The notes under the pieces are model-generated. The model had not been told where the DNA came from. It saw only the letters and a program-made list of their open reading frames with translations, and did not search any database. Positions 2,431 to 58,047 of a stretch of 64,000 nt of DNA are shown one piece after another; positions within the stretch are counted from its first letter, which is position 1; the number at the start of each line of letters is the position of its first letter. The position numbers and the translations under genes are program-made. This DNA is from Nannochloris sp. 'desiccata' (Eukaryota > Chlorophyta > Trebouxiophyceae > Chlorellales > Chlorellaceae). Location: contig JAGTXX020000005.1 in assembly GCA_019044685.2 (NCBI GenBank), positions 310,001-374,000 on the forward strand, read 5' to 3'.

Positions 2431-2750
2431 TGTTGTAGCTAGTTTACTATTTAATTTTGAAAACTTAACGTCGAAATTAAATTAAATAATTTAGGGAACT
2501 AAGGGGCCCCAACCAGCTCTTTGATGTTTGACTTTTGGTCAACGCAGTCGGCACTCTCAGTTTTTACATATAAATGTATATCGTCATGACGTTTCAACGT
2601 CCAAAATAATAGATCAAATCAAACAATACTTATTAAAAAATAAAAATCAAGGGACAAATGATACAGAAAAGGCCAAAATCAAACAAGAAACGGCCCAAAA
2701 ATTTATACATTTCAAAAAGTCAAAAGGCGCCAAGCGCTAACGTACACAGC
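2431..2750. other. AT-rich intergenic region
   Basis: Between the start of the DRC11-like gene and the stop of the betaine lipid synthase, both on the minus strand. It must hold the promoter of the former and the 3' UTR of the latter. Short open frames here look like chance. I see no repeat or RNA gene. Confidence 0.5.
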
Positions 2751-4907: not shown

Positions 4908-5674
4908 TCTGACTTTATTTTGGTGCTGAAGAATGTGTTTGTAGAAGTATACAGGGCTCTGTTTGACTCGCTTGTTTTAACAGAAACAAAGGTCTATCGT
5001 TTGGTAGATGACAAGCAGATCAGTGCGGGCTTGAAGATGTCTAAAGGATACTCAATAAGTCCAACAACGCCTTTCATAAGCTCAGTATCATTCATTAAAA
5101 AAGAAATTGTGCAAAGCTAAAAAGGATTCTTGAATAAAAATTTTGAGAAACGGAATATACTTTTTGTCCACGTTCACAAATTGTTGTAATAGTCAAAAAG
5201 CCGAATCTCTTTGACCGAGGGCCCAAATCCAGGGCTTCTCAATCAGATTTAAGGGCCCGAAATTTGCAGGCTCCCACTATAATATCTTGATTATTGTCTG
5301 CAACAAAACGAAGGCAAAACAAAATTTGCCCGCAGAGATTTTCTGAGAAAAGCCTACTTTCAGATTAATTTCCCGCTTTTTGCGGGCAGCGGGCGCGTAT
5401 GAGAAGCCCTGGCCAAATCTGCAGACTTTGTTGCAAATAATTATGCATTTGTCTCTTTATATAGGACTGGCCTGAAGTTTACTTTAGTGGCGACACTTAA
5501 GCCCTGGCTCTCACAATTCCTAAAGTCACCCTGTTTTTCAATTTCCTAAAACAAAATTCAATCTATCGTCTTCTCAACTCAATAACATTATAAATAAACA
5601 ATCAAAAAAAATCTGCTCTATGCAAATATCTCTCTCTCATTATAGTATGTATAGCTACTGTCTGTAGCTACTAT
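4908..5674. other. Intergenic region with BTA1 5' side, MSH6 3' side and a MITE candidate
   Basis: Flanks the 5' end of BTA1 and the 3' end of MSH6, both minus strand. A minus-strand frame at 5095-5025 begins MNDTELMKGVVGLIEY and might be an upstream BTA1 exon, but I could not find a donor of the right phase. The only structured element is the terminal-inverted-repeat unit at 5229-5412. Confidence 0.45.
5229..5412. mobile_element. Candidate hAT-like MITE, about 184 bp
   Basis: Perfect 13-bp terminal inverted repeats: CCAGGGCTTCTCA at 5229-5241 and its reverse complement at 5400-5412. If the repeat is taken to begin at CAGGG, the usual start of hAT elements, the flanking octamers are CCCAAATC (5222-5229) and GCCAAATC (5412-5419), matching at 7 of 8. 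If it begins one base earlier, a perfect 6-bp duplication CCAAAT flanks the unit. There is no coding capacity. I see no second copy in the window, so the assignment rests on TIR plus target-site duplication alone. Confidence 0.6.
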
Positions 5675-8600
5675 TTACCACCCCAAAGCAGTTCTAACTT
5701 CTGCCAAAATTTCAAAGACTCTCGCAGGATCCACTTCTGCAGTTGAACAAGCTTCTACTACTTTACGACGCAATTTCTCCAGCTCGTTATCTTCAAGAGT
5801 ACTAGTAGCAGCAATATCCATAGCTGATGCTGTTTCTTCTGCACCCAAGGGGGTGTCTTTAAGGCCAGCAATACCTCGGTCCTCAGCTTGCTGACTCACC
5901 ACTGCAGCCCTACGGACTACAGCATCAGGCAAGCCTGCAAGTCGAGCAACGTTTACACCATACGATTTAGGGCAGGCACCTTCAGTTAACCTATACAAAA
6001 AGGTAACCTGATCGACACCGTCGCCGCCATCTTCAGCAGGAGTGACAGCGCAGGCCATGTGTTTAATAGCTATAGCCGGATCTTCAGCATGAGAGTCAGA
6101 GATATGATGATAATGGGTAGCAAAAACACCTCTGCATTTTACAGTCGCTGCTAAATGATCTAACACAGCAGCAGCGATCGCTGCACCATCGGTGGTGGCG
6201 GTACCGCGACCAAGCTCATCCAACGCGACAAGAGAATAACGAGTAGCAGATGCCAAAGCAGCTGCGGTTTCCGATAATTCAACGAAGAACGTGGATTGGC
6301 CAAGCATAATACGATCACGTGCACCCATACGAACAAAGACAGCATCAGTAGGAGTCAACTCCAATGCTTCAGCAGGCACCCAGGCGCCAATTTGAGCAGC
6401 GACTGCCGCCAAGCAAACTTGACGCATCAATGTAGACTTACCGCCCATATTAGGCCCAGTAAGCACCACAAAAGGAGGAGAATTGCCACCAAGTTGAACG
6501 TCGTTAGGGACAAAGGCACCGCCAGAGCCACCAACGCCAGCAGCAGGGTGGCGCAAGCCTTGGGCACAGAACACAGGTGCCGCATTTTCTTCTTCGGACC
6601 AAGTAAGGAGCTTGGGGCGAGACATGACCCCAGCACCACACGCAGCAGCAACAGCTAAACTCATCAAAGCATCTAAAATTGCAACAGAATCCACAGCTGC
6701 AGCCCAAACTTCTCTTTTTTCAGCAAATCTTTTCAAAATCGCCCTTAAAATTCCAGTTTGCGCCTTTTCTTTCGCATCTAAAGCAGCTTCACGAGCAGTA
6801 ACAAGCTCCCTGAGTTCGGAGTTCATATAGCGTTTGACGCCTTTCTTCCCTTGCATTGACTCCCATTCTCGAGGGACCGTTAAATCTTCTGGTACCTCGA
6901 TCACGTGACTCTCTTTATTCAAAGAAGCGTACTTCACATCTCGAGAACCAAGCTCAGCCTTCAATTCTTTTAAATAATCAGCTAAAGCAGCTTCAGAAGT
7001 TTTGACAGCTTCTTCAGCTGCATCGTATTCTGCATCAACACCAGCAGCAGGAACTACTCGACCAGTTGACTCTGCCTCTTCCCAATCAGCCGCAGCACGC
7101 ATTTCAGCTAAAGCAGGCTCCATATCAAGCAATTTCCCGCTACCTTGGGCACTGGGAGTCACTAGATCGAGTAAAAGAGAAGACGTCGCGCCACAGTTGG
7201 CAAAGGCCTGGACTGCCCTTTGCACCTGTTCTAAAGCACGTAGAGTAGAAACAAACGCGTGAACCCTCTTTTTAGAGACATCTTCATACAAAACAACGCG
7301 AGGATGATCGCGTTCGGAGCCTACACCAGCTCCCGTTGCCCCCAACCTCGCCAAAGCACGTTCCAAATCAGAAACACCCGATAATGATTTACGAGCGGTA
7401 CCAGCAGCTTCTTCGGCAGGTCCCATAAGATCTTGCACGGCATCTTGACGCAGTACAATATCTGAAACGCGACATAATGGACGGCAAAGCCATTGACGTA
7501 ACCTTCTACGACCGAAAGGAGTGGTGCAGTGATCGAGTGCCGCAAGAAGAGTGCCAACCACCCCACCTTCGCTGTTCTCCATGATTTCGAGATTTTCAAG
7601 CGCAGGGCCGTCTAACGTCATATACTTGGGTGCAATAGTAGTAGTATCTTTCGCAGCAGTATTCCCTGAACCAATACCGACAGCTTCTTCCATGGCTTCC
7701 ACCCTCCCAGCGCCCAGAATTCTCTTGTCCAAAAGCGTCTTTTGGAGGAAAGAGACACATCCACCAAGAGCAGCAGTTGCGGCAGTGTAGGTAGTACGTT
7801 CGGATTCCATTTTGGAGATAATTGCCGGTAAAGATCCTGAAGGGAAGTACTTGAAACTGGAAGCAGAACCAAGATCAGTATCGTTCCTGTCACAATTGTC
7901 ATCGCCACCCTCAGTTTCTTTCTTCTTGTTCTTTTCTAACAAGCGGTTCCAAGTCTCTTCTGCACTCCAGAAATGCCCATCTTCATCTCCAGGAGGCAAT
8001 TCATTCACCAAAGGAGAACGCAGCACGCCCAGCACGACACGGCGAGAAGGACCAGAGAGTAAACTTGTACCTCGAGGCAGTACAACTTCTACCGGGGACA
8101 ACGCAGTCAACGCAGCACGGAGTTGAGAACGAAGCTCATCATCGCGCCATTGACCAACTAATAATTGGCCAGTAGCGACATCTACAGCTGCAGCACCAAT
8201 CCAGACCTTATCTCTACTTTCGCCGTCGGCATTGCCGTCGCCTTTACCAGCAGGATTTGAAGCAGGCAAAGGCAGTTCTGCTACAGCCATCAAATACTGT
8301 GCATCAGGCACCGCACCCATCATCTCAGCATCTGTCAACGTGCCTCGTGTCAATACAGCTACTTTCTCTCTCCTCACAACCATATCTTTCTTTAAACCAT
8401 TTTTCTTTCTTTCTTCATTTCGCTTTGCCAACGCATCTGGAGTTTCTGTCTGTTCAATAACAACCACCCTGTGTCCAGCACGGGCTAACCTCTCCGCCAT
8501 AGCAGCATACCCTGCTTCGGGAAAGCCACAGTGAGGTTGATCTCCCTTCATATAAGATAAGCCAAGGCACTCAGCACCTATGTGAGCATCCATTTCAAAC

Positions 8601-39086: not shown

Positions 39087-39153
39087 TCAATTCATGTTTT
39101 GTAATTCCACCATTGCAGCGTACTTGCCATTCTTCGCCATCAGCGAAGAATGA
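38895..39153 (+). CDS. Possible two-exon micro-gene of 38 residues
   Basis: An ATG opens 27 codons (MGKQWEREAINNFESAEVEG, then AIAPAAA) that end at a consensus donor, GCAGCAG|gtgaga (38976). A consensus acceptor, accattgcag at 39118, joins in phase to AYLPFFAISEE and a stop at 39153. The second exon is antisense to the last codons of the ABC transporter. Both splice sites are good and exon 1 has a balanced composition, but the product is tiny and matches nothing I know. It may be chance. Confidence 0.25.
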
Positions 39154-42100
39154 CTGCCCTTTTCAACTATATTTCCCCGGTCCAGCACCACAATAGTATC
39201 AACATTCCTCACAGTAGCCAGCCGGTGAGCAATAATCAACCCTGAACGGCCTATCATAGCAGCGTCTAATGCATCTTGAACTACCCGCTCAGACGTGGCA
39301 TCCAATGCTGATGTAGCCTCATCCAGCATCAATATTTTGGGGTTCCTTACTATAGCCCGAGCAATGGCAATACGTTGCTTTTGCCCACCACTAAGTTGAA
39401 TCTGTTGGTCTCCAATTAGGGTATCAAACCCAGAAGGCAATTCATTAATAAACCCAGAAGCATTTGCTACAGATGCTGCAGCTTTGCATTCTTCATCAGT
39501 CGCATCGGGGCGGCCATATTTGATATTCTCCATCAAGGTACCTGAAAAAAGCACAGGCTCTTGTCCAACCAACCCAATTTGAGAACGAAGCCAGTGTATA
39601 TTAAGAGATGGAAGAGGCGTCCCATCCATCAGCACGGTGCCAGCAATAGGATCGTAAAAGCGCAGGGTAAGGCCAACTATCGTTGACTTCCCACAGCCGG
39701 AAGGCCCTACCAATGCCAGAGATTTGCCTCGTTGAAGCTCCAGATCCAAATTTTCAAAAATAAGAACATCAGGGCGAGCTGGGTAATAAAATTTAATTGC
39801 TTTGAATGTGAGAGATCCAGCCGATTCTTTAGGCTCCACTCCTGTATTGCTCACGTTATCAATCTTTGGCTTGCGATCGATAATAGCAAATACCCGCTGG
39901 ACAGCAACTTTGCCCTTGGCTACATCAGGGAAATTCTGTTGAGCAGTACTAATATAGACAAATGCCATAAACATGGGTACAATACTACTTGTAGCTTTGT
40001 TTATGCTCGATTTCCCTTCTAAAGTAAGCTGCCCAGCATACCAAAAAGTCAAAGCGTAGGCAGAAAAAGAAATAAAGTAAACTAATCCAATTTGAACACC
40101 TTGCGTTAGACTTTCTTGTACCGCAAATTTCTGAACACGCTCCATTTTGGATTTATACACACTGCATAGAGGTGTTTGAAGGTTAAATACGCTCACAACT
40201 TTATAATTTGAAGTTGACTCCATAGCAACGCTGTCGGCTTCGCTCACTACATGACTTTTTTCCACAAGAAGCGGTTGCATAAGACGCATGCCTATCTTGG
40301 GTATAATGATTGTGACAGGAAGAATGGCCAATAAAATCAAGGTTTCTTGCCATTGATAGACAAATGAGATCGGAATACCAGCTAAAAGACTCCCAAGAAT
40401 TTGAGAATACATACCGAAAGTATCGCTAGCTCGACCTTTGACACTGTACGCATCAGCTTCAAGACGGGCAATAATGGCACTGCTACTATTCTCTTCTCTA
40501 TCATACCATCCAACCTCCTGGCGCACCAAGTTATTCATCATCATGGTACGAAGCCGGAAGGCTAATCGCTGCCCAATTCTGCTAAACAGATAGCCTTGGA
40601 CGAACGCTGCAATGCCTGTGGAAACTGCAATAGCAGTCATAATGAGTGCCCATTTCTCGACGGCAGGCATAACTTGATCTGAAGGGAGGTAGTACGCAGA
40701 CACAATGGATGTCAGTGTAAGACCAGTGCATGGGTAGAGAGCACCGACAATTGTGGCACTCGCTACAGCAAGCAGCACAGAAGTGCGGTCTGGTTTTAAC
40801 AATGAAAGAAAGCGTTGAGTAGGTACTTCAGGAAATTCTTCTTCCTCGTGGTCTTGTTCTTCCTCTACAACGTCAATTTTCAGCCCTGTGCTGGTGACGG
40901 TAGAGCTTTTTGTGGTGAAGGTTTTAGACAGCTGACCAGACGTCAACTGGCGCGAAAGTTGGGTGTTGATGGGACCTGAAGCATTCGGCATTAGAATTGC
41001 ACTCGCTCCAATAAACGAAGAGCCCATTAAATCTTGCGCGGCAAGCTCTCTGGACTGAACTTGTTGTTCTAGAATAGACGACCCCGAGAGACGCATAGAA
41101 GCACTCTGCTTCAAAATAGTTCCGAGAGGCTCTCCAGCTTCAATTGCCTTTTCATATTTCTCGACTAAAATGGAGTAGGCACCTTGTGCAGCGACAAGCT
41201 CTTGATGCGTGCCTTGCTCTATAATCATACCTCGATCCATCACAGCGATAATACTACTATCACGAATAGTAGATAATCTATGAGCAATAGCAATTGTCGT
41301 ACTGCCAGCTGTCAACACTTGGAGCGCGTCTTGAATAGCTCGCTCTGACTGTGTATCCAGTGCAGAAGTTGCTTCATCAAGTACAAAGACTTTGGGGGCT
41401 CTCAAGATGGTGCGCGCAATCGCTACTCGTTGTTTCTGTCCTCCTGATAATTGCGTGCCTTTTTCACCTACCATAGTATCATACCCATTTGGTAATGTGG
41501 CGATAAAATCGTGGATTTGAGCAGCTTTAGCAGCTGTGATAATCTCCTCCATAGTTGACCCAGTTTTCCCGTAACCAATGTTCGCGGCAATACTATTATT
41601 AAAGAGAACTGGTTCTTGGCTCACCAGACCGATATGCATTCTATAGGACTCTAGTGTGATTTGACGCGTATCAAACCCGTCAAAAAGGATTCTACCAGAG
41701 GTAGGGTCATAAAGACGTAGTAAAAGAGAGACGATGGTTGACTTGCCGCACCCGCTTTCACCAACGAGCGCTGCAGAGGTTCCAGCTGGAATGGTCAGGG
41801 AAATGCCATGCAGGATTTCTACATCTGGAGAGACGGGATAAGAGAAACGCACATTTTCGAGAGAGACTTCTCCTGTCGCTGTCGTCAGCTCCAAGGTTTC
41901 CATGTCTATCAATGCAGAGGGGGGGGGGGGGGGGATAAAGGAAGAAAGAAAGAAAAGTTAATTCACCAAGATATTTAATGACATCGTAAATGCTCTTTAT
42001 CAACTCAACGAACTTAATTATCATCAATATACTACTTTACTAACCTTTGGCTGCTCTACTGGATTTACTATTTACATATTCCAGCAATTCATGCACTTGA

Positions 42101-43371
42101 GTTGCCGCCTCTGCCGCTGCAGGGATGAATTTGATCAGTGGTGCAGTAGCAGATAAGTTCTGATACGCCATTAAAAGAGATGACAATACAGCAAACACTG
42201 CACCTCCTTGGTATCTACCATCTACCACTTGAATTCCACCATACCATAGAACAAGAGGAAACACTGCAAAAGCACAAAACCGAATGCTACCCTCTTGTAT
42301 ACCATGCGCCAAAGACGCTTGTAGCCCATATTTCAAAGGTGGTTCCAATTGCTCTGTGTAGTTTTGGACACTACGTTCTCCAGCATCAAAACTGTATACT
42401 GTTCTAATATTACCTAGCATACTTTTGGCATAGGCGCTGGCATCTTGTAACGCTCCAGCGCTTTTTGTATCCATCTTGGTGCTAAACTTTGTTGCAAGAT
42501 ATACAGAGACGACTAAAATAGGTAGGCAGGCAAATGAAATTAGTGTCAAATCCCACCCTTCGTAGAATGAAATTCCCACAGCGGACATAGAAATTGCGAA
42601 CGTTTGTAGAAAAACAGGGAGCCGTACACCAATGAAATCGCCAACAGCCGTGCAGTCCATAAGCATTACGTGGGAAACTCGGCCAGTAGTGGTAGAATCG
42701 TAAAAGGTGCAGTCTTGATTGAGGGATACATAAAGAACTTCAGTTTTCATGGCAGTCATGAACCGAGCTGCTGCGTTTTGCATTCCAAACCTGGCCATGA
42801 CCATTGCGAAGAAAATGGCGATGCCGACGATTGTCAACATGAGAGATGCCTGGTTCAAACCTGGAAAAGATGGGCAAGCAGAATGGGTGATGTACTATAT
42901 ATATCCACATAAACTGTTTTTACTTAAATCTGTACTGAGACTTACTATCGATAGATGCTGGATCAACTACTGGAGCTGCGGCGGTCTCGGTAGTTGGCGC
43001 TTCCGTGGCAGATCCTAAACTATCAAAAATATCCGAGAGCAGGAAGCCAAATAATGGCATCATGGCACCTGCAAATATTGATATTATTGTTAATGCCGAG
43101 GTAGGTTTGGAGAAATAAAAGAATGGCACTTGAGAGCTTTTTTGTTTCCTCGGAATGTGAATTTCGGGGCTCACCACTAGCAAGAGGTCCTATTGTACCG
43201 ATGATCAAATACACCCATGCGGCGGTGTCAAAGAATCTGAATGTTGATTTGTTAATTGGGTGGGTTTAGATGTAGTTCAAAAACAGGCAGCAAAACAATT
43301 AATGTTATATACCTCCTCATCAATGAACTGAGCGCCAACCACCCCGTTGGGGGCTCTCGTGCTGTTACCAT
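39087..43371 (-). CDS. Full-length ABCB/MDR-type exporter
   Basis: P-glycoprotein-like ABC exporter (TMD-NBD-TMD-NBD) that would extrude amphipathic or peptide-like compounds. Five exons: 43371-43313, 43236-43175, 43068-42946, 42860-42045 and 41905-39087. All introns are GT-AG and in phase; 1292 residues, the canonical family length. TMD1 begins with WVYLIIGTIGPLASGAMMPL. NBD1: Walker A GESGCGKST, signature LSGGQKQRVAIARTI, Walker B VFVLDEATSALD. NBD2: GPSGCGKST, LSGGQKQRIAIARAI, ILMLDEATSALD. Both ATP sites look intact. The linker between halves is long and Ser-rich. Intron 4 contains a run of 16 G/C bases. Its ATG lies 334 bp from that of the divergent NRPS gene, so it is the natural candidate exporter for the peptide product; that pairing is inference. 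Confidence 0.92.
41919..41934. repeat. Poly-G/C run of 16 in an intron of the ABC exporter
   Basis: Sixteen consecutive G on the plus strand, that is a C-tract just before the 3' acceptor of intron 4 (41906-42044). It serves as the polypyrimidine tract of that acceptor. Its length could vary or be misassembled. Confidence 0.9.
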
Positions 43372-43705: not shown

Positions 43706-46700
43706 ATGCAGCTGGAGCAGGGGCAACAGGTTGCCAGGCCTGTACCTCCAATTGCTCGCCAGATGATAGAGGCGTGGCGTCTTGATCCTCTTCAACAGGG
43801 AAACCTTGTTTCAGAACTCTTGACCCTTCAATACAAGGGTAAACTCGATGATGCATTGCTGGAAAGAGCTTTCCAAGCAGTAGTAGATAGGCACGAGCCT
43901 TTACGTACAGGGTTTCGTGTTGCCACTGACAGCGGAGAAATAACAGCTCATGTGCACCCTGCAGGCAGCATCAAGGCGGAGCTGGAAATTTTGAACTTGG
44001 ATCGTTATGCAGCAACATCACAAGAAGTCAGATCAGCTCTTAAAGATGTGGCTCGACGGGAATTTTTTGAAAATAAACCACCTCTGGTACGATTAGTAGC
44101 AGCTCATGTGGAAGATGATCGGCATGTTTTATTGCTAGCCTACAACCATTGCGTTATGGATGGAATGAGTTCTGGAATATTCTGGAAAGATTTGTCTGCT
44201 GCATACAACAACGCGTTTGATGTGTTACCTCCTTTGCAAATGACATATAGCGACTACACAGCCCTTACTATACAGGCACTCACCCCTGCACTGAAAGATT
44301 CTCAGCTGAATTATTGGAAAAAGTCTCTTGCTAGCGCACCTGAACTTCTAGATCTTCCAGTAGACTTTCCTCGCCCTACAGCTGCATCGTACTTGGGTAA
44401 CACCTTGACCTTTGACATTGATGGAGCTCTCCTGCAGAAAATTAGACAACTGATGGCTAGAGAACACCAATCTTTACTGCGTGTAGCAGCTGCAGCATAT
44501 GCTCGAGTGCTAGCGTATTATACTGGGCAAGAGGAGGTTGTTCTTACTGTGCCACGAGCTGTCCGCCCACCTGGCAGCGAAAACATGATTGGACACACAG
44601 TAAATGTGATGGCTATTCGCATTCCTATAGACCCCAAAACACCATTTATTGACTCAGTACAACTAATTGGAAAGGCTATTAAAGAGGCTGTCTCCCATTC
44701 AGATGTTCCCTTTGCTAGTGTAGTAGCAGCATGCGCACCAATGCGCTCAGCAATGTATTTGCCTATTAGTCAAGCATCAATTTCTGTCCATGAACAAGCC
44801 TGGGTCAGCGCTCCTGAACTTGCAGGATTAATGGCAGAGGAATCCAATATAGAAGTTGAAACTGGGAGACTACGAGGAGATTTGCAGCTCTATGTGAGGC
44901 AATTTAAAGATAAAGTTCAGTGCTTGTTGTTTTACAACTCTGAAATATTATCTTCAAAGACAGCTCAAGCTCTCGCACAAAAATTCCAGATTGCGCTCGA
45001 AATTGGTGCTGAAAATCCCGCTGCACCTGTGGTGCTGGGACTAGCAGAAGAGGAAAAGCAGCGCATCGTCGAGCTCAGTGTTGGTGACCAACGGCCTCAA
45101 TACTTGAGTGCTCCTTTGATGCACGAATCCTTCGAATCTGCTGCTGCAAGATCACCCAGCTCCAACTGCTTGTGTTTTGAAGGCACTTGGCTGAGCTATG
45201 GTGAGGTTGAAGCTCGTGCTTCTGCTGTTGCCGCACACTTGTGGGCTCTTGGTGTCGGTCCCGGGGTGGTTGTGGGCTTGATGCTTGACCGAAGTTTTGA
45301 GTTGGTGATATCTTTGCTGGGTGTGCTGAAGGCTGGCGGGTGCTACCTACCGTGTGACCCTGAGTATCCTGATGATAGGTTGCAGATCTATCTTGAAGAC
45401 GGTAAGGCCAAGGTGGTGTTAACGCAGGCGCAATACACCGAGCGTGCTGGCAGCATGGCTGCTGCTGGGGTGCCTATTATTGATGTAACTTCTTCTGATT
45501 GGCAGGAATCAAGCACTGGAAATGCTTCATTAAGGCGTGCTGGCCCTGAAGACCCTGCCTACATCATCTTCACCTCTGGCTCCACCGGGCGGCCAAAGGG
45601 TGTGCAAATTCCTCACCAAGGTTTGAGGGACTTGATTCCTGGGCTACTCGATTTATATCAGCTTGGTAAGCATTCATACTACTCTTAAAATCTCTTGTGT
45701 GTGGTATTATTCAATAGCATTAGAGTCAGAGTCAGAGTATCGTTTGATTCCTTTTTTCCTTTGCAGGTCCTAAAGATGTCGCCATCTTTACCAACACTGT
45801 AAACTTCGATGCGCACGTCATTCAAGTGCTTCCAATCTTGTATACAGGCGCCTCTTTGGTGGTTGTAAGGCCTAAAGGGCACTTGGATGCATGCCACGTT
45901 GTCGATCTTGTCTTAGCTCACACTGTTACCAGCTTTGTGGTCTCGGTTCCTACGATGGCGCGAGAGTATATGGCTGAATTTAAGAGAAGAAAGCTGGCAC
46001 AGTATAAACCCATGCGAGCTTGGGCTTTAGGCGGAGATGCTGTCCCTGTTGATCTCGTGCATCAAATGCAGGAGGTGAGTCGTGGGATGCGTGAACATTT
46101 TTTCTTTCTTTTCTGCATATCTTTTGATTGTTGTTGATGGTATATTTTTGCGTTTGCTGTGCAGTTCTTCCCTAATTTGGTCCCTATTAATGCCTACGGT
46201 CCCACAGAAGTATCTGTTGTGGCGGTGGAGCATGTCTTCCCCCGTGGCTTTAATACTGTCGTGATAGGTCGTCCAGACGCGAACGTCCTTGCCATGGTGG
46301 TGGACTCTGCACTGCAGCCGCTGCCTGTGGGTGTGCCTGGTGAGCTGCTGCTGAGCGGCCCTCGCTTAGCCATGGGTTATGTAGGTCGACCTGACTTAAC
46401 TGAAGAGAAGTTCATCTCCAACCCTTGTTTGGACTTGGTGCTGGGCAAGTTGCACCCTGCCTTGGCTCCCTATTACAAGAGAGCTTACCGCACTGGTGAT
46501 TTAGTTCGGTGGCGCAGCGACGGCACTATCGACTTCTTGGGCCGTATTGACCGTCAAGTGAAGATCACTGGTGTGCGTATTGAGCTTGGCGAGGTTGAAT
46601 CTGCGCTGGCTGGAGCCCCTGGAGTGGAGCAATCCCAAGCGGCTGCGGTGCCGGACCCACAAGGACAAAAGCGTTTAGTCGGGTATGTTACCCCTGCTTC

Positions 46701-49700
46701 TGCTGACACTATGGCTGTGATTGCTCACTGCCGGGCACAGCTAGTGCCTGCTATGGTGCCCAGCGTAGTAGTAGCGCTGGATTCATTCCCACTGCTGCCC
46801 AATGGCAAGGTGGACACCAAGTCACTACCTGCTCCCGAGTGGGGCGGGGCTGGGTCCGAGAAGTACGAGCCTCCTTCCAATGATGCTGAATCTGCTGTTC
46901 AAAAGGTGTTTGCTGATGTTCTTGGCCGTCCTGTTGAGGAGCTGAGCGTGTTGACCGACTTCTTTGCTGCTGGTGGTACCTCGTTGCAAGTTTTCCGTGC
47001 TGCTGCTCTGTTGCAGTCAGCTCTTGATGTGGCCTCTGTGCCTCCAACCTTGGTTCATACTGCGCGCACAGCTCGTGCTGTCGCGGAAGAGTTGCTGCAG
47101 CTAAAGGAAAAGAGAGGAAGAAAGGCAGGTACAGGTTTAATCAAGCCTCGCATGTGGTCTGCGCAAGAGCGCTTGCTTTCTTCTAATCAACAGCAAATGT
47201 GGCTTCTTAGCAGTCTTGCGGGATCCAGTGCTTACAACGTTCCATGTGCACTAGAACTCAGTAAAATGCCAAATATCGACTACTTACGAAGTGCTCTAAA
47301 TGCAGTCGTTGCCAGGCATGAAGTTCTTCGGACTCGATTCCACAAACAGAGGGATGGCACTCTATGTGGTATTGTGACGCCTGCAAATATGTATACAGTG
47401 CCTTTTATTGTCTCAAAAGTGTCTGGTGACAAACAAATGAGAGCAGCGTTGGCTGCTGAGCTCGCCTTCCCCTTTAATTTGGAGGCTGACCCTTTGCTTC
47501 GAGCCATGTTGTTGGAGCGGCGTGGCGGCTCTGGTGCTGTGCTTGCCTTGACAATGCACCATGCTGTGGGCGATGCTTGGTCTTTGGGAGTGTTCTGGAA
47601 AGAAGTTTCTGAGGCATATGCGGCAGCAGCACGTGGTGTTGCCCCTGCTTGGGACCCATTGCCGATCCAATATGCTGACTATGCTGCTTGGCAAGAGGAG
47701 CAGCTGAGTGGGGAATCTGGAGCTTCTTTGCGTGCTTATTGGAAGGAAGAGCTGGCAGGTGTGCCTTCCGTGGTGCAGCTTCCCTACGATCACCCTCGTC
47801 CCCTTCACCCCACCTTTGCCGCTGGCTCACTGCAGGTGCCACTGCCGCCCAGGTTGTTGCGGGGTGTTGAGGAGGTGGCTCGTCAGCTTCGTGTGAACGT
47901 CCAAGCTGTCCTGCTTGCAGCCCTTCAGACGGTGCTGCTTCGATACAGCGGTCAAGAGGACCTTGTTATTGGCGTGCCCGTTGCCGGGCGTGACCGCTCC
48001 GAGACCCACGGCCTTGTTGGTTACTTTATCAATACGCTTCCTATTCGTTGTCTTGCAAGAGACGATTCAAGTTTTGCTGCGATGATTGGTGATGCAAGTT
48101 CATCTATGCTGGCTGCTTTGGATCACTCTCTTCTTCCCTTGGAAAACATTGTTGCTGTGTCTGGTGTTGGTCGTGTCCAAAATGTGAACCCTCTTTTTCA
48201 AATTTTACTACAGTATCTTCCTGGCTCTCCAACCGACTGGGGATTGAAGCTGGATGGCATTGAAGTGAACTCGTGCAGTTTGTTGCCTGGCCTTGAGCAT
48301 GCTAAAATGGACCTAAACATCAATTTTAAAGCAGATGCTGTGGAAGCAGAGTACTTAAAAGAACTGTTTGATGCCATTACAATTCAGCGCTTGGTGCACA
48401 GTTATATTGCAGTGTTGCAGCATATAGTAATAGATGTGGATGCAACTGCTTTGAAATCTAATTTACTAGGCGATAATAATGCTGAAGAGGTTGTTCTCTT
48501 CAGTATTGGTGACCAACGGCCTCAATACTTGAGTGCTCCTTTGATGCACGAATCCTTCGAATCTGCTGCTGCAAGATCACCCAGCTCCAACTGCTTGTGT
48601 TTTAAGGGCACTTGGCTGAGCTATGGTGAGGTTGAAGCTCGTGCTTCTGCTGTTGCCGCACACTTGTGGGCTCTTGGTGTCGGTCCCGGGGTGGTTGTGG
48701 GCTTGATGCTTGACCGAAGTTTTGAGTTGGTGATATCTTTGCTGGGTGTGCTGAAGGCTGGCGGGTGCTACCTACCGTGTGACCCTGAGTATCCTGATGA
48801 TAGGTTGCAGATCTATCTTGAAGACGGTAAGGCCAAGGTGGTGTTAACGCAGGCGCAATACACCGAGCGTGCTGGCAGCATGGCTGCTGCTGGGGTGCCT
48901 ATTATTGATGTAACTTCTTCTGATTGGCAGGAATCAAGCACTGGAAATGCTTCATTAAGGCGTGCTGGCCCTGAAGACCCTGCCTACATCATCTTCACCT
49001 CTGGCTCCACCGGGCGGCCAAAGGGTGTGCAAATTCCTCACCAAGGTTTGAGGGACTTGATTCCTGGGCTACTCGATTTATATCAGCTTGGTAAGCATTC
49101 ATACTACTCTTAAAATCTCTTGTGTGTGGTATTATTCAATAGCATTAGAGTCAGAGTCAGAGTATCGTTTGATTCCTTTTTTCCTTTGCAGGTCCTAAAG
49201 ATGTCGCCATCTTTACCAACACTGTAAACTTCGATGCGCACGTCATTCAAGTGCTTCCAATCTTGTATACAGGCGCCTCTTTGGTGGTTGTAAGGCCTAA
49301 AGGGCACTTGGATGCATGCCACGTTGTCGATCTTGTCTTAGCTCACACTGTTACCAGCTTTGTGGTCTCGGTTCCTACGATGGCGCGAGAGTATATGGCT
49401 GAATTTAAGAGAAGAAAGCTGGCACAGTATAAACCCATGCGAGCTTGGGCTTTAGGCGGAGATGCTGTCCCTGTTGATCTCGTGCATCAAATGCAGGAGG
49501 TGAGTCGTGGGATGCGTGAACATTTTTTCTTTCTTTTCTGCATATCTTTTGATTGTTGTTGATGGTATATTTTTGCGTTTGCTGTGCAGTTCTTCCCTAA
49601 TTTGGTCCCTATTAATGCCTACGGTCCCACAGAAGTATCTGTTGTGGCGGTGGAGCATGTCTTCCCCCGTGGCTTTAATACTGTCGTGATAGGTCGTCCA

Positions 49701-52700
49701 GACGCGAACGTCCTTGCCATGGTGGTGGACTCTGCACTGCAGCCGCTGCCTGTGGGTGTGCCTGGTGAGCTGCTGCTGAGCGGCCCTCGCTTAGCCATGG
49801 GTTATGTAGGTCGACCTGACTTAACTGAAGAGAAGTTCATCTCCAACCCTTGTTTGGACTTGGTGCTGGGCAAGTTGCACCCTGCCTTGGCTCCCTATTA
49901 CAAGAGAGCTTACCGCACTGGTGATTTAGTTCGGTGGCGCAGCGACGGCACTATCGACTTCTTGGGCCGTATTGACCGTCAAGTGAAGATCACTGGTGTG
50001 CGTATTGAGCTTGGCGAGGTTGAATCTGCGCTGGCTGGAGCCCCTGGAGTGGAGCAATCCCAAGCGGCTGCGGTGCCGGACCCACAAGGACAAAAGCGTT
50101 TAGTCGGGTATGTTACCCCTGCTTCTGCCGACACTATGGCTGTGATTGCTCACTGCCGGGCACAGCTAGTGCCTGCTATGGTGCCCAGCGTAGTAGTAGC
50201 GCTGGATTCATTCCCACTGCTGCCCAATGGCAAGGTGGACACCAAGTCACTACCTGCTCCCGAGTGGGGCGGGGCTGGGTCCGAGAAGTACGAGCCTCCT
50301 TCCAATGATGCTGAATCTGCTGTTCAAAAGGTGTTTGCTGATGTTCTTGGCCGTCCTGTTGAGGAGCTGAGCGTGTTGACCGACTTCTTTGCTGCTGGTG
50401 GTACCTCGTTGCAAGTTTTCCGTGCTGCTGCTCTGTTGCAGTCAGCTCTTGATGTGGCCTCTGTGCCTCCAACCTTGGTTCATACTGCGCGCACAGCTCG
50501 TGCTGTCGCGGAAGAGTTGCTGCAGCTAAAGGAGGAGGGTGGAGGTGCAGGATTAATGACTCGTGCTATTAAATACAAAAAGTGGTTAGGCTCCGAGAGG
50601 CCTTTATCTTCAAACCAAGAGCAGATGTGGTTGCTGAGCACTCTTGGTGGTGCCTCTGCTTACAATATGCCGCTTGCTATTGATCTTACATCTATGCCAG
50701 TGGCTGAAGCGCTGCAGATTGCTCTTGATGCTGTGGCTATGAGGCATGAAGTCCTCCGCACTAGGTTTTTCCGCAAGTCTGATGGTACTGTGGCTGGTCG
50801 AGTAACCCCTCCTGAATCTTTCCATGTACCGCTGCAAGTTATCCAGATAACTTCTGAGAAAGAAGTTGCGGCTGTGGTCGCTGCTGAATGCGACCAGCCC
50901 TTTAACTTGGAGGCTGGCCCTTTGCTTCGAGCCAAGTTGTTGAAGCGGCGTGGCGGCTCTGGTGCTGCGCTTGCCTTGACAATGCACCATGCTGTGGGCG
51001 ATGCTTGGTCTTTGGGAGTGTTCTGGAAAGAAGTTTCTGAGGCATATGCGGCAGCAGCACGTGGTGTTGCCCCTGCTTGGGACCCATTGCCGATCCAATA
51101 TGCTGACTATGCTGCTTGGCAAGAGGAGCAGCTGAGTGGGGAATCTGGAGCTTCTTTGCGTGCTTATTGGAAGGAAGAGCTGGCAGGTGTGCCTTCCGTG
51201 GTGCAGCTTCCCTACGATCACCCTCGCCCCCTTCACCCCACCTTTGCCGCTGGCTCACTGCAGGTGCCACTGCCGCCCAGGTTGTTGCGGGGTGTTGAGG
51301 AGGTGGCTCGTCAGCTTCGTGTGAACGTCCAAGCTGTCCTGCTTGCAGCCCTTCAGACGGTGCTGCTTCGATACAGCGGTCAAGAGGACCTTGTTATTGG
51401 CGTGCCCGTTGCCGGGCGTGACCGCTCCGAGACCCACGGCCTTGTTGGTTACTTTATCAATACGCTTCCTATTCGTTGTCTTGCAAGAGACGATTCAAGT
51501 TTTGCTGCGATGATTGGTGATGCAAGTTCATCTATGCTGGCTGCTTTGGATCACTCTCTTCTTCCCTTGGAAAACATTGTTGCTGTGTCTGGTGTTGGTC
51601 GTGTCCAAAATGTGAACCCTCTTTTCCAAGTGCTGTTCCAATATTTCAATGAAAATGGTCAAGAAGATGGTTTATTAGGAGATATCAAATACAGTCCGCT
51701 GCATATGGCAAAGCTAGGGCAGGCAAAGCTTGATTTGACTACGAGAGTTGTCGGCAATGAACTGCAGATGGACTTCATGTCTGAAGTGTTCAATGAAGCT
51801 ACAGTGAGAAATCTCTTAAATTCTTACATCTCTGTGCTGACTGCCGGGGTAGCAGACATTCAGAGAACAGCAACTATGTTGCCACTTATTGATGTTTCTG
51901 ACGAGCACGGTGTTGAAGCTTTGCGAGTTCTATCCTGTGGCAATTGGAATCCTGCCCACCTTGAGGAACCCATGGTGACAGTTGCACTGACTCAACGTGC
52001 TAAATCGTTCCCTAATCGTTCATGTTTAGTGTTTGAAGGGCAAGAGATGACCTATGGGCAGCTGGAAGCAAGCAATACAACCCTTGCCCAAGTGTTGACG
52101 GGTTGTGGTTTGCAACGAGGAATGGGAGTAGGAATTTTGCTAGAACGTTCCTTTGAGCTATTTATTGCTATGATGGCAGTATTAAGAGCAGGTGGGTACG
52201 TCGTTCCCATGGATCCTGACTTCCCAACTGACCGTTTAGCAATGTACGCAGAAGATACTCAGGTTCATAGCATCATCACAATGGCTGCTTTAAAAAGCCG
52301 TGCAGAATCTCTCAGCACGGCCCATGTTCCACAAATCTTGGTGATAGATGATGAAAGCTTGCAAAATACTCCCAAAGGAGACTTACCTCATGAAATCTCC
52401 CCTGATTCTACTGCTTATGTAGAATTTACGTCTGGCTCAACAGGAAGACCGAAAGGTGTCATGATTCAGCACCACTGTTTGGCGTCATATTGCGCCAGCA
52501 TTCGCGATATGTATTCTCTCGGTCCTGATGATTGCGCTCTTTTATTAACTAGCATCAATTTCGACCCATTTGTGAGGCAAACCTTCCTCCCTTTATATAT
52601 TGGAGCACGTGTTGTCATCGCTAGGTCGGGAGGGCATTTAGATGCTGATTATATAATGGAGCTGGCATCTACTCATGGAGTCACCATCATGCATTCAGTT

Positions 52701-55700
52701 CCAACACTTGCGCTGCAATATTACGCAGCTCCAGCGGCATCCAAGTGCACCAAGCTGCGCTATATTGGCTCTGGTGGAGAGCCGCTACCTCAACAACTAG
52801 TAGATTTGGTGCATGCCCTCAACGGTGGAAAAGTGACTCTATATAATAATTACGGTCCCACAGAGTGTACAGTGTCCTGCACATGCCAAATTGGAGTGAA
52901 ACCAGGTGATGCTATCACTGTAGGTGGCCCAGATATCAATATTGCTGCTTACGTTGTCGATGCTCACATGCAACCAGTTCCTATCGGGGTCCCAGGAGAG
53001 CTCCTTATTAGTGGCCCACGTCTCGCTCAAGGGTACATTGGCAGATTAGATCTTACAGCTGCTGCTTTCATTCCTAACCCTCTGTATGAAATAATGGCAC
53101 CTGCTATTCCAGAAGGAATGCGGCATCATTTTACAAAGGCATATCGCACTGGTGACTTGGTGCGTTGGCGTAGTGACGGGACTTTAGTTTGCATGGGACG
53201 TATTGACCGTCAGGTAAAGATTTCTGGTGTTCGTATTGAGTTGGGTGAGGTAGAAGCTGCTTTGGAAAGTGCAGAAGATGTAGTACAGGCTATGGCTGCA
53301 GCAGTACCAGATGCAAATGGGCATAAAAAGTTGGTTGGGTATGTTACCCCTGAATCTTTAGACCCTGGTGCCGTACTTACTCATTGTAGGTCTATGCTTG
53401 TTCCTGCTATGGTCCCTACTGCAATTGTTGCTCTTGAAAGCTTCCCTTTGCTTCCTAATGGCAAAGTGGATGTTCGCAGCTTGCCCGCTCCAGATTGGAC
53501 TTTCCAAGCCAACCTTCTTGATATGTTTGGAGAAGACGATGGTCCTCTCGATGAGTATTCAGCTGCCGTAGTGGATACCATAAGGCAGGTATTAAGCTTA
53601 GATGAGGACGTGAGGGTACCTCTCAAGGCTGAGCTCTTTGATCTTGGGGCCACCTCGGTGCAGATTGCTTCTCTCGTTGGAAGAATTAGAAAGCAGATGG
53701 AAGTGAAACTTGACATGCGGCAAGTATATCTGAATCCACAGATTGAGTTTTTGTGCAAAGAAGTACGCAAACAAAAGGGGGACGCAGGTGTTCCAGGAGC
53801 GCCAGGCTCTAAAAGATCTACCACCTCCTCTGCTCGCCATCGCCTGCTCGGATACCCGATTGCTGTCTGGGCAAAATCTCTAGTTTCAACAAAGCCACTT
53901 GGTCGGTTTGGAACCGCGCTTGTGCAATTAATTGGTGCTATGATTGTCTTAGCATTCCAATTTGGATGCATTGTTCCAGGGTAAGGGTTTTCAACTACTC
54001 TCCATTTTTAAGGAAGAGAAGATTCTATATTAAAAAAAATCCACATTTTAGGCAGCCTTGGATTCTGTAGCTGGGGATTCTCATTTGTTATTCTTTCTGT
54101 CTTTCTTTTTAATTTCAGGGTGTACGTCATTGGCCGCGTTGACTACTACACTGGTCGGCTTGCTGCATCGCTTTTGGCTCCAATTGCCTTTCTTATGTGG
54201 GGATTGACCTTGCTAGTGCTCACGTTTCTTGTCAAATGGATTTTGATTGGACGCTACAAACCTGGAACGTACCCTTTATGGGGCTGGTATTATCTGCGCT
54301 GGTGGATTGTGCACCGAATGGCTCGAGTATCTGAAGCTGTGCTCCAGGTTGTTGTAGGAACGCCAATTTGTACAATGTATCTCAGACTTATGGGTGCATC
54401 TATTGGATATAATGCCCAAATGTACACCTCTTTTGTCACAGAATTCGATCTAATTTCAATAGGAAGAAACAGCACAATTGGAGAGGTAAGAAAAGAGAAG
54501 AACCAGGCCAGGCTTGAAAACAATTTAATTTCCAATCTTGTCTTCCTCTTCTTCTTCTTCTTCATTTTTTAAACAATCTGGCTTTTCCCTTCTTTATTAT
54601 CATCCCCCTTATCTTCAGGACGTCATGCTTTCTGGGCACAGTATTGAGCGTGGCTACCTTGTATTAGGGCCAATCTACATTGCAGAAAACTGTTCAGTAG
54701 GTATGCTCTCAATTATTATGCCTCACACGTCGCTGGATCACAGCGTGGCACTGGCACCTATGTCGATGGTTCCTTTGGGCACTGCCCTTCCTCCCATGAC
54801 CACTTGGCACGGCTCTCCTGTTCGTAAGAGAGAAGGATCGCTACTAGCACCGCAGGAGAACACCAACCTTTTCAGTTTCAAATATACAGCAATGCTGGCA
54901 TCTTCTGTGCAAGATCATCCTGGTGTCGCCCAAAATGTTCTTGCATCAGCAGCAACTCGTCTGGGTGGGGGAATAGTACGTGGCGTTTCCTCATGGCTGG
55001 CATTATTGCCAGTATCAGTTGGGGTTATCTTTTTATGGAACGACAGTCCTGCTGTGCTGGTTCTCATTCTAGCTTTCGGATTTGTTCTGTCCTTCCCTCT
55101 CTACATGATTCAAGTAGTGGCGCTGAAATGGCTTGTTCTTGGTCGCACCAAGCCTGGCAAATACAAGGCTACTAGCTCATATGCCGTTCGTTATCAACTA
55201 GTTGATCTCTGGTTTACTGCGCCATTAGCACGAAGCTTTTGCAAGCATTTTACCAAGACGCCATTGATGCCTCTGACCTTGCGTGCTCTCGGAGCCAAGC
55301 TGGGAAAGAAGACTATCTTTTACAAAATGCATCCGTTAATGCTTGCTGGTGCTGATCAACTTAATTTCGGCGATGCTGTAGTCATTGGTTCAGATGCTCT
55401 TGTGCTGGGCGGTGCTGTGCTTGCAGACACTCTTCTTATTGCACCAACAACTGTGAAATCAAGTACTTTTGTTGCAGATGGAGCGCTGGTTCTTCCTGGC
55501 AGCACTTTAGGTTTTTCATCGCTGGTGGGTGTGCAAACTATTATCCAACCTTTCTCCAAGTTGGAAAACGGTTCTGTTTGGGCAGGTAGTCCTGCTCTTT
55601 GCCTTGACCCGGGTCTTACAAATGCAGCCAGCTCAAGAGGTATTTCTGCTTCAACGATTTCTATGCGGAACTTAAGCTCAAGGTCTCTAGGCAGCAATAC

Positions 55701-58047
55701 TACTCGCTGGCAAAAAAGTCAAAGGTTGCTTGCTGTGCATATTCTCGACCACGCAATGTCCTCCAGGAATCTCTCTGCTAGAAAATCATCCCTGTTGAGT
55801 AGAGGCTTTTCTGGGCTAAATGCTATTGGAGAGGATGGACCAGTCACCGGCGTTCTTGATAACGAAGGTATTACCAAGCGATCGAGTTCTGCTGGAATCA
55901 AGAGGCCCGCTAAGTCTAAATCGCTCGGCGTGTCTCCTTTTTCTGCATCAATGTCTCCCAAAGTAGCAGCAACAAACGCAGCTGAACCTTCTGGCATCTC
56001 TCTGTGGGGAATGGCATCTCCACTCTTCTCTCAAGCTTCTACCATTGTTGGACAGCTGCAAGAAATGCAAGGTGGAATCAGTGCGTACTTTACCTTAATA
56101 GTGCCATGTCTCTTGTTGCCATGTTTCTTGTTTGCAGCCTTGGTAGCCCCTGCATTTATTATCGACGTGGCAGGGACGACGAGTAGCAAAACTTTGGCGT
56201 ATTGCTTGGTTCCTGTGGCAGCTGTCGTGTTTTGTTTGTCTTCAGCAATCTTGTTGTTGGCGTGCAAGCGTATTCTCCTTGGCCGTACTCAAATCGGAAG
56301 GCACGGCCTGTATGGAAAATGGGCATTGATCCGCTCTGCTGCGCTTTCTAGTATGTTTGACCTCGCTGGCGCTGTATTCCTCAATGCGTTGATGGGCACT
56401 CCTTGGGCAGGCTGGTATCTTCGCGCTCTAGGGGCCTCTATTGGCAAAGATGTGTATTTAGATGGATTGCCTCTGGCAGAAACAGACCTGCTGATACTTG
56501 GTGATGGCGTCATCGTCAACCGCGGTGCTAAAATCAATGTGCACAATGTCGAAAACGGCACTGTAGAGTGTTTGGGTGTTGAAATAGCCCCAGAGGTAAC
56601 CCTAGGTCCCCGTGCACATGTCATGCCCAATGCAGTGCTGGAGGAGCGTAGTGCCCTCGGTGCACTTAGTGTCGCCATGAAGGGCGAAAGTGTAGATGAA
56701 GGAGCATATGCTGAAGGCTATCCGTTGACGCACCTAGGCACCTGGTATGATTCTGAAGCACAGCAGCCAGCTGCGGCAGTAGACGCTGCGGCTGTGGTTG
56801 AAGAAATGCGGAGAGATGCTGTGCTGCCGTCTGATATTCGTCCAGCACCCGTACAAGCCCCTGTTGGTACAGCTAGCCCATTCCAAACAGTGAAACCTGG
56901 TCCTCCAGAAGTGGTATTATTGACTGGAGCTACTGGTTTCGTTGGTGGCTTTATTCTGCGTGAGCTCCTGCGGCCTCCTCGAGGTCTTAAACGCGTGTAC
57001 TGCTTGGTGCGCTGCAAGTCTTCTCAAGATGGTGTTGACCGTATTCGCAAGCAGTTACTCCATCATGAGCTCTATACAGCGTCGGAATGGTTAGAAATAG
57101 CTGCTCCTCGCCTTTACGTGCTGCCAGGCGATCTTGGACAACCATCGTTGGGCCTTGATGCCCCCACAATGCAACGATTAGCTGATGAAGTAGACGTTAT
57201 TATCAACAATGGTGCCATGGTGAACGTAACAAGAGGCTACGCTGGTCTTAAAACATCAAATGTCGATGCTGTTTTGGAATTGCTGCGTCTAAGTACCAGG
57301 GGTGTATATGCCAAGCCCGTGCATCAAATAAGCACAGGTGGTGCACTACCCCGCACAATGACTGGAGCAATTAAAGAAGAATATATCAACCCTGATCCTG
57401 AATATCTAGCCAACTTTACAGGCTATGATCAGAGTAAGTGGGTCGCTGAGCGTCTCGTTCTCGCTGCTGGACAGGCAGGGCTATACACTGCCGTTCAGCG
57501 CCTTGGCCGTGTAGGTGGAGATTCCATCAGTGGTGGTGCGAACGAAAGCGATTACTGTATGCTTTTGATAAAAGGATGTCTTCAAATGGGGTGCTTTCCA
57601 GCAAATTATCAATTTGCTTTGAATATTATTCCTGGAGATCTAGCAGCAAAAGTTATTTGCGACAAGGCGCTTGCCATCGAAGGAAAATCATGTGGTCGTA
57701 CCTATCACGTAACAAACCCAAATCCACCTCCTTTCCAGCTGGCTGTGAATGTATTAAAGCAACTGGGATATCAATTTGAGGAGGTACAGTATGCTGCTTG
57801 GAGAGAAAGATTATTCAGCTGTGCAAAAGACAACAATGCCTTGAGACCATTGGAACTCGCCTTTGGGCAAGAACCGCCTAAAAAGAAAGTTTATTCTTTC
57901 GATTGCACAAATTCTGGAATTCGTGGAAATACATTATCTGCTGCCCATTTAAAACGTGATTTTGAATGGTGCGCTAAAGTGGGTTTCTTTCCACCTTTGC
58001 CCCTCAAGGCAACTAACACAACGCAAGAACAAGGAAAAAATATATAA
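43706..58047 (+). CDS. Giant NRPS: three C-A-T modules, three membrane/LbH units, thioester reductase
   Basis: Seven exons: 43706-45665, 45767-46074, 46165-49090, 49192-49499, 49590-53980, 54119-54485 and 54619-58047. All six introns are GT-AG and in phase; 4562 residues. C1 about 15-445 (active motif NHCVMDG, first His lost); A1 about 470-985 (TSGSTGRPKG, NAYGPTE, NGKVD); T1 Ser1029 (GGTSL). C2 about 1085-1520 (HHAVGDA); A2; T2 Ser2107. C3 (HHAVGDA); A3 about 2624-3130; T3 Ser3190 (LGATSV). Then come three repeats (from about 3255, 3545 and 3906) of membrane helices, an ILIGR/LVLGR/ILLGR-G-Y/H motif, an LRxLGAxxG motif and hexapeptide left-handed-helix strands. The same layout is found in epsilon-polylysine synthetase C-termini. 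The end (4186-4555) is a thioester reductase: GATGFVGGFILREL, STGG and catalytic YDQSK (Tyr4356, Lys4360). Likely product: a membrane-made acylated or free tripeptide aldehyde or alcohol. A1 and A2 have identical pockets. Substrates unknown. Confidence 0.93.
45081..47108 (+). repeat. NRPS module duplication, block 1, copy 1 (A1-T1, with introns)
   Basis: About 2028 bp matching 48506-50533 at an offset of 3425 bp, including both introns (101 and 90 bp). I see only three substitutions: two in one codon (GAA to AAG, Glu to Lys, near 45179/48604) and one silent T/C near 46708/50133. Confidence 0.95.
47473..48197 (+). repeat. NRPS module duplication, block 2, copy 1 (C-terminal part of C2)
   Basis: About 725 bp matching 50901-51625 at an offset of 3428. 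Several substitutions cluster in the first 70 bp; I see only one in the remaining about 650 bp (CGT/CGC). The DNA between blocks 1 and 2, which encodes the N-lobe of the condensation domain, is diverged between the two modules. Confidence 0.93.
48506..50533 (+). repeat. NRPS module duplication, block 1, copy 2 (A2-T2, with introns)
   Basis: Partner of 45081-47108. It carries the same two introns at 49091-49191 and 49500-49589. Adenylation domain 3 has no intron at either site. Confidence 0.95.
50901..51625 (+). repeat. NRPS module duplication, block 2, copy 2 (C-terminal part of C3)
   Basis: Partner of 47473-48197. After 51625 the two modules diverge abruptly again. Confidence 0.93.

Follow-up and report, generated by a model that had tools for sequence, protein, structure and literature searches.

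We identified in the window, a stretch of 64,000 nucleotides from Nannochloris sp. 'desiccata', a gene whose predicted product joins three complete condensation-adenylation-carrier (C-A-T) modules to a membrane and left-handed-helix tail of the Pls/PosA type and ends in a thioester reductase. These parts are known; among the matches listed, their combination is confined to this alga and to similar environmental sequences. From the sequence, we consider it moderately likely that the product is a synthetase anchored in a membrane, probably making N-acyl peptides, which are released by reduction and passed to an exporter. The gene lies on the + strand (43706..58047), starts with an ATG at 43706 and comprises seven exons encoding 4562 aa (492 kDa, or 397 kDa minus the tail). 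Removal of six GT-AG introns leaves a single frame of 4562 codons with zero internal stops and matching phases. The features of the gene and of the adjacent transporter are as follows.

39087..42894, - strand: ABCB/P-glycoprotein-type transporter in two frames, divergent, proposed exporter (profile match)
43808..45055, + strand: C1 condensation domain, not preceded by A-T, motif NHCVMDG (Pfam, 191.9 bits)
45075..47108, + strand: near-perfect direct repeat, introns included, other copy at 48500-50533 (4 mismatches in 2034 bp)
45113..46851, + strand: A1 adenylation domain, interrupted by two introns, code DAISWLAVVK (Pfam, pocket code)
45666-45766, 46075-46164, 49091-49191, + strand: introns (GT-AG)
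46894..47091, + strand: T1 carrier, FFAAGGTSL (PP-binding, motif)
47164..48489, + strand: C2 condensation domain, HHAVGDA (Pfam, 263.6 bits)
48556..50234, + strand: A2 adenylation domain, split by two introns, pocket code identical to that of A1 (Pfam, pocket code)
49500-49589, 53981-54118, 54486-54618, + strand: introns (GT-AG)
50319..50516, + strand: T2 carrier (PP-binding)
50598..51857, + strand: C3 condensation domain, HHAVGDA (Pfam, 258.1 bits)
51990..53504, + strand: A3 adenylation domain, code DPRSISNVSK (Pfam, pocket code)
53565..53756, + strand: T3 tail-type carrier, LFDLGATSV (PP-binding, motif)
53898..54254, + strand: membrane helix pair 1, holding intron 53981-54118, first helix weak (hydropathy)
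54255..54828, + strand: left-handed helix unit 1, holding intron 54486-54618, EFD...GHSIERG (alignment)
54973..55128, + strand: membrane helix pair 2 (hydropathy; helices in the predicted model)
55129..55623, + strand: left-handed helix unit 2 (TIGR02353, alignment, model)
56071..56283, + strand: membrane helix pair 3 (hydropathy; helices in the predicted model)
56284..56748, + strand: left-handed helix unit 3, where the bacterial QTHLFEDR region reads NVHNVENG with H4062 kept (alignment)
56911..57993, + strand: thioester reductase, TGATGFVG and Y4356-D-Q-S-K4360 (TIGR01746)

The predicted gene structure and domain order were confirmed and lie far beyond chance. The original prediction had described one 4562-residue protein at 43706-58047 in a green alga; it was exact in coordinates, frame, intron phases and length, and right about the host. 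Pfam, NCBIfam and hydropathy agree with the three C-A-T modules, three membrane/left-handed-helix units and reductase with YDQSK that it had listed, and domain searches matched Condensation and AMP-binding three times each, PP-binding at three places, NAD_binding_4 and TIGR02353, the full set that it had named. Rfam and tRNA scans of the window gave no matches.

The repeated C-A-T modules with their core motifs support the claim of a full NRPS. In the C1 motif Asn replaces the first His, and the C2 and C3 motifs end in DA, not DG. In a tree of the 24 C domains from within this genome (quick method, long branches, reference starter C domains not included), C1 and the C1 of a paralogous gene, C3A, cluster apart from the elongation C domains (SH-aLRT 100). 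We propose, from its position and from this tree, that C1 is of starter type. The pocket codes of the A domains were read by motif anchors, which give no confident substrate prediction; A1 and A2 share one code, so the same amino acid would be used twice. Arg at position 3 of the A3 code would presumably suit a carboxylate-bearing substrate and recalls aminoadipate-type codes, but an aminoadipate-like call was dropped because this residue is too weak a basis. The direct repeat corresponds to the A-T of modules 1 and 2 (99.8% identical), and a second repeat pair (47470-48201 and 50898-51629) shows 7 differences in 732 positions. These near-identical module repeats point to recent change within the gene. 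Carriers need a PPTase for activation, and PPTase matches (PF01648) were found in the genome at C6:2144744 and C5:27570.

A reductive-release domain had been placed beyond the membrane part, and the evidence supports this: TIGR01746 scored 239.1 bits, above its curated cut-off of 213.35, NAD_binding_4 scored 186.4 bits, and both the cofactor (Rossmann) motif and YxxxK are present. The best sequence match of this domain was the R domain of myxalamid MxaA (213.6 bits), which its predicted fold also matches (TM 0.84-0.86 of the target). Such a match would fit two- or four-electron reduction alike.

The 21.55-Mb genome assembly carries NRPS genes on three contigs: the window gene on contig C5, two convergent genes on contig C3 (C3A and C3B) and one on contig C9. 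The single case implied by the original prediction thus gave way to a family, in which the tail-reductase end recurs in C3A and C3B and a reductase-less form is found in C9. C3A (~7,850 aa, its start codon being approximate) has six C-A-T modules, the tail and the reductase. C3B (~15,900 aa) begins with an acyl-ligase-like part (best PDB match oxalate-CoA ligase, 191 bits) and a carrier, followed by thirteen C-A-T modules, the tail and the reductase. C9 consists of C-A-T, C plus A with a broken core motif, A-T and the tail, with no reductase. The paralogue models were obtained by domain mapping and exon chaining, and their module counts depend on the assembly of near-identical repeats. The chained totals of 8084 aa (C3A) and 15,993 aa (C3B) include exons of neighbouring genes, namely the first five of the C3A chain and the last two of the C3B chain, which were discounted. 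C3B is the least sure model: stricter chaining ended at 9,733 aa, looser splice scores gave 15,993 aa, and the full model uses a non-consensus donor at C3:461678 and several other non-consensus donors.

On these models, the carrier-tail-reductase end appears to serve lines of 3, 6 and 13 modules. The same end is present in five proteins from the database searches (P0002, P0003, P0005, P0121 and P0170), to the extent that their sequences cover it. The carrier that precedes the tail reads LFDLGATSV, LFDLGASSI or FDLGASSL, versus FFAAGGTSL in most elongation modules, and this GA-type signature also stands before the tail in C3A, C3B, P0121 and P0170. Since the tail-preceding carrier has its own signature, carrier, tail and reductase look like one cassette.

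An ABC transporter adjoins all three reductase-type genes. It precedes C3B in divergent orientation, is likewise divergent from the window gene, and immediately precedes C3A on the same strand; the C9 contig gave no ABC membrane-domain match. By our own grouping of 30 Pfam matches, the genome contains about 18 ABC transporter genes, so that a three-in-three adjacency is unlikely by chance (~6e-8 for a random order of 9,123 genes). In the matching membrane domains the three partner transporters share 40-52% identity. Three others of the ~18 genes were compared with them: two full transporters, at 25-35% identity, and a half transporter, at 20-27%. The adjacent ABCB transporter is proposed to be the exporter of the product. 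The original prediction had named neither this transporter, nor the 99.8% identity of A-T between modules 1 and 2, nor the distinct type of C1. Reductive release, membrane anchoring and export, taken jointly, seem fairly likely.

The tail had been predicted to be homologous to the Pls/PosA synthetases, and TIGR02353 (Pls/PosA terminal domain) does match it, though under the curated cut-off. P0001, the NCBI protein covering the 3' part of the gene, scored 337.2 bits against a cut-off of 423.1 (613.6 for the bacterial member P0010); in the window gene, exon 6 scored 95.3 bits and exon 7 228.1 bits. The predicted membrane helices were also recovered by hydropathy, three pairs preceding the three hexapeptide units. 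Pair 1 comprises residues 3271-3290 (1.73) and 3312-3343 (2.24). Stretches of the A domains score up to 1.82, a level that neither this first helix nor the first helix of pair 2 (1.82) exceeds; the others do, at 2.24-2.65. In an AlphaFold model of exon 7 (mean pLDDT 75.0, pTM 0.57), units 2 and 3 and the reductase are mostly above 80 and the linker between units 2 and 3 is of low confidence. The model of a bacterial tail, P0015 (mean pLDDT 92.1), matched left-handed-helix proteins including hexapeptide acyltransferases, for example maltose O-acetyltransferase, with E-values from 2e-5 and low TM over the query. The available part of PMC10522769 describes the bacterial tail as modelled in one domain with approximate three-fold symmetry and six helices.

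To describe conservation, we used as non-algal reference the proteins P0006-P0120 (115 listed) from a search that returned the best 120 of 179 matches; 105 passed the length filter and 70 had a full tail. Conservation in at least 85% of these 70 tails defined 98 columns, of which the window gene keeps 56, C3A 50, and C3B and C9 46 each. The unit-3 signature E..D..QTHLFEDR..E has its His and first Glu in 70/70 non-algal tails, its first Asp, Gln, Leu, second Asp, Arg and last Glu each in 69/70, Thr in 66/70 and the middle Glu in 61/70. In the four algal genes, Gln, Thr, Leu and Arg are all missing (0/4), which leaves the QTHL..DR core broken throughout. The first, middle and last Glu are each found in three of the four; C5 and C3A retain the first Asp, C5 and C9 the His, and C3B alone the second Asp. 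Five of the ten signature residues (Glu, Asp, His, Glu, Glu) thus remain in the window gene, and since the His is one of them, unit 3 of this gene is not simply dead.

Unit 1 offers other candidate residues (E3406, D3408, H3427, E3430 and R3431). All three reductase-type genes have (E/D)FDLI...HSIERG in this unit; C9 has Tyr at that place. H(S/T)IERG is also kept in P0002, P0003, P0121 and P0170, and P0005 ends short of the site. A His occurs at this site in 3 of the 70 non-algal tails. Compared with P0002, the window gene is 90% identical in unit 1 (exon-7 part), 90% in unit 2, 92% in unit 3 and 94% in the reductase, with 77% and 83% in helix pairs 2 and 3 and 72% in the linker between units 2 and 3. 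The corresponding values against P0003 are 90%, 83%, 86% and 89%, then 72% and 73%, and 58%. Between the three paralogues with a reductase, conservation is lowest in unit 3, at 31-48%; unit 1 stands at 50-55% and unit 2 at 45-58%.

Judged on these comparisons, the tail may have a catalytic role, although we lean slightly against it; its conserved residues may serve structure, and conservation alone is no proof of catalysis. One alternative, possible but on balance not what we expect, is that the tail is a mere membrane anchor or scaffold left from a Pls ancestor, with the C-A-T modules and the reductase doing all the chemistry. It would account for a unit-3 core that is near-invariant in the 70 non-algal tails and broken in the four algal genes, and for the low conservation of unit 3 among the reductase-type genes; nor is a tail needed for reductive release. 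However, the units are almost as conserved as the reductase between close relatives, although a scaffold could be conserved too, and His-x-Ile-Glu-Arg is conserved in unit 1.

The original prediction had noted that such tails make peptide bonds, as in polylysine synthetases. For the algal tail as it stands this is unlikely, with the unit-3 core lost and the Glu of the terminal A domain absent. Pocket position 3 of the terminal A domain is R, T, M and M in the four algal genes (Glu 0/4); according to the available part of PMC10522769, Glu at this position is conserved in all such homopolymer synthetases (CHPAs). Given the broken core and the missing Glu, the tail is probably no plain polylysine polymerase. 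It is also improbable that the tail extends the carrier-bound peptide by several free amino acids, in the manner of polylysine or polyornithine synthesis, to give a hybrid before or instead of reduction. Homology along the tail (337 bits), the same T-tail order, the five signature residues that the window gene keeps in unit 3, and the requirement of the bacterial C-terminal domain for polymerisation, stated in the same part of that paper, would all suit such a hybrid. Against it stand the terminal A domains of the four genes, the loss of the signature Gln, Thr, Leu, Asp and Arg in the window gene, and the position of the reductase after the tail.

We consider it very unlikely that the modules, tail and reductase are separate transcripts. 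The NCBI model g02216 (Ndes2526B_g02216, P0001; 1703 aa) does span only the 3' part of the gene: it begins inside condensation domain C3, skips part of A3, is 100% identical to exon 7 and has its tail spliced as in the window gene. Separate genes were nevertheless rejected on frame and intron phases, as the single frame runs across all six introns with no stop between the parts. Moreover, P0121 has module, tail and reductase in one protein, and P0170 has carrier, tail and reductase. A codon-usage exon chainer returned the identical seven exons; it was trained on the CDS of this same gene, so that the agreement is a consistency check only. In two environmental relatives, at 86% and 80% identity, the product of exon 7 starts at most 2 residues away from the exon border seen here, which would fit a conserved intron.

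To describe occurrence elsewhere, three protein searches, each scoring a capped list of candidates, spanned candidate lengths of ~628-2000, 2509-7983 and 937-2980. Among the 226 matches listed, the tail was found in 148, the reductase in 85 and both in seven (P0001-P0005, P0121 and P0170), all algal-type; the remaining listed proteins match only one of the two. Two of the seven are from Nannochloris. The other five are JGI environmental proteins; we count them as algal-type on the ground that their match to the query, at 38-86% identity, extends through both tail and reductase. The tail and a C domain occur in one protein, among the matches listed, in P0001 and P0121. The original prediction had suggested looking for the same order in algae and bacteria: algal-type relatives were found, and none of the best 80 of 584 prokaryotic tail loci has it. 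An A domain was present in 76 of these 80 loci, and a reductase or C domain (E 1e-5 or better) in none. The patterns of this prokaryotic scan were unit-3 motifs, which favours bacterial-type tails, and several contigs were shorter than the 6 kb flank sought per side. A contig scan with the algal tails as query found no relative; a bacterial donor of the whole architecture was not found in scans with algal or bacterial tails.

In a tail tree made by a quick method with many long-branch warnings, the five algal-type rows cluster together (SH-aLRT 100) and are separated from the 89 other rows; C9 sits on a long branch, and the tree shows no close donor. Bacterial contamination or a very recent transfer, brought to mind by the many prokaryotes among the named tail matches, can practically be dismissed and was rejected on introns and neighbours: introns run throughout, the four genes lie on three contigs, the neighbours are eukaryotic (ribophorin I, MutS with a Tudor domain, ABCB), and the algal tails stand apart in this tree.

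Several known systems share part of this architecture. In Pls/PosA (CHPA, NAPAA) synthetases, as in the window gene, a carrier is followed by three units of a helix pair and a left-handed beta-helix. They have a single A-T module and lack both C domain and reductase (in the best 80 of 584 loci), whereas the alga has three C-A-T modules and a reductase; they also have the pocket Glu and the QTHL..DR core, both absent in the alga, whose tail scores below the cut-off. The MxaA (myxalamid) and MxcG (myxochelin) lines share C-A-T modules and a terminal reductive domain with the window gene. Unlike it, the other reductase proteins among the matches listed have no membrane tail. L-aminoadipate reductase (LYS2) and carboxylic acid reductases are single A-T-R enzymes that are not known to carry modular C-A-T repeats or a membrane tail. 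Thioester reduction is common to them and the window gene, and P0001 reaches 265 bits with TIGR03443 (LYS2) against a cut-off of 1030.

A literature search found no description of the NRPS-tail-reductase architecture. The statement of the original prediction that no example had been described held to that extent, but some algal NRPSs in PMC4661987 may share the architecture. According to the available part of this 2015 survey, which took in 32 algal species, 6 NRPS proteins with 11 C domains between them were counted outside Symbiodinium. It includes a Bigelowiella natans NRPS of 490 kDa with 10 domains, three of them C, and an Aureococcus counterpart of 460 kDa, JGI protein 70689, which come near the window gene in C count and mass. 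Its figure key includes a 'Red' domain and that part mentions no membrane tail, the comparison being by description only. We regard this as a serious lead: these two NRPSs might share the architecture, with the tail unrecognised. Bigelowiella natans and Aureococcus are not among the named rows of the matches listed, most rows being nameless. In the bacterial cluster described in the available part of PMC13291983, the A-PCP-Pls protein is encoded separately, next to PKS-NRPS genes, and is not a fusion.

In the membrane-anchored synthetase that we favour, C1, as starter type, would couple an acyl group to the first amino acid, and modules 1-3 would build an N-acyl tripeptide X-X-Y. T3 would present this peptide to the Pls-derived tail, which would hold the line at the membrane and might carry out an acyl-transfer or tailoring step; the best-kept candidate centre lies in unit 1, with unit 3 partly kept. 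The NADPH reductase would then free the peptide as an aldehyde, or as an alcohol by two rounds, and the adjacent ABCB pump would export it. The tail and the reductase have one terminal carrier between them, so if the tail were to pass the peptide on to a free acceptor, that step would be in competition with reduction. A bolder form of this mechanism, which we regard as doubtful, is a new line ending in which a homopolymer-synthetase membrane domain sits between the last carrier and the reductase, its working centre moved from unit 3 to unit 1, and the peptide is transferred or modified before export by a co-evolved ABCB transporter. The shift of the centre is weakened by the half of the unit-3 signature, His included, that the window gene keeps.

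If this reading is true, some green algae own a family of peptide synthetases that are very large, bound to membranes and paired with exporters. Peptide aldehydes or alcohols, compounds that often act on proteases, would then have a source in the green lineage. The alga retains the tail yet alters its conserved residues and adds a release domain, and would thus provide a natural test of the role of the Pls/PosA tail.

The genome of the same alga (G000) carries NRPS genes paralogous to the window gene on two other contigs, C3 and C9. These genes and the associated features are located as follows:

G000:C3:403100-427913 (loci L022-L024, L034): C3A, six-module NRPS gene, start codon provisional
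G000:C3:429900-482100 (loci L025-L030, L035, L036): C3B, 13-module NRPS gene
G000:C9:1011550-1022873 (loci L031-L033): C9, fourth NRPS of the genome
Window 45075-47108 and 48500-50533: 2034-bp direct repeat in the window gene, 4 mismatches, introns included
Window 39087-42894; G000:C3:398220-402629; G000:C3:483069-486000: ABC transporters adjoining NRPS genes

C3A and C3B are convergent and share the carrier-tail-reductase end of the window gene. C3B is ~50 kb long; an exon-chained model predicts a product of about 15,900 residues with a mass near 1.7 MDa, and its loading domain is oxalate-CoA-ligase-like. The C9 tail is Pls-type (polylysine synthetase-like) but divergent, the reductase is absent, and in the second A domain, which is not followed by a carrier, the core motif is disrupted (AAGPAGRPYG). 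For a Pls-type database protein, P0171 (1946 aa, source ena), the precomputed Pfam annotation includes an ACPS (phosphopantetheinyl transferase) domain. In the algal genome, three regions densely packed with ketosynthase and carrier domains (G000:C6:625-662k, C6:2306-2358k and C3:28-54k) are probably large type I polyketide synthases.

The A-T repeat of the window gene reflects recent duplication or gene conversion. Condensation domains C3A_C4, C3B_C8 and C3B_C12 formed one group (SH-aLRT 100) in a quick tree of 24 C domains with long branches. They carry the motif HHIAMDG/HHILMDG and perhaps represent a different stereochemical subtype.

Elsewhere in the window, 2751-4346 (-) encodes a DUF3419 protein (362.5 bits), presumably of betaine-lipid synthase type. 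An ABC transporter adjoins all three reductase-type NRPS genes (window gene, C3A, C3B), and these transporters resemble one another more than they resemble the three others compared.
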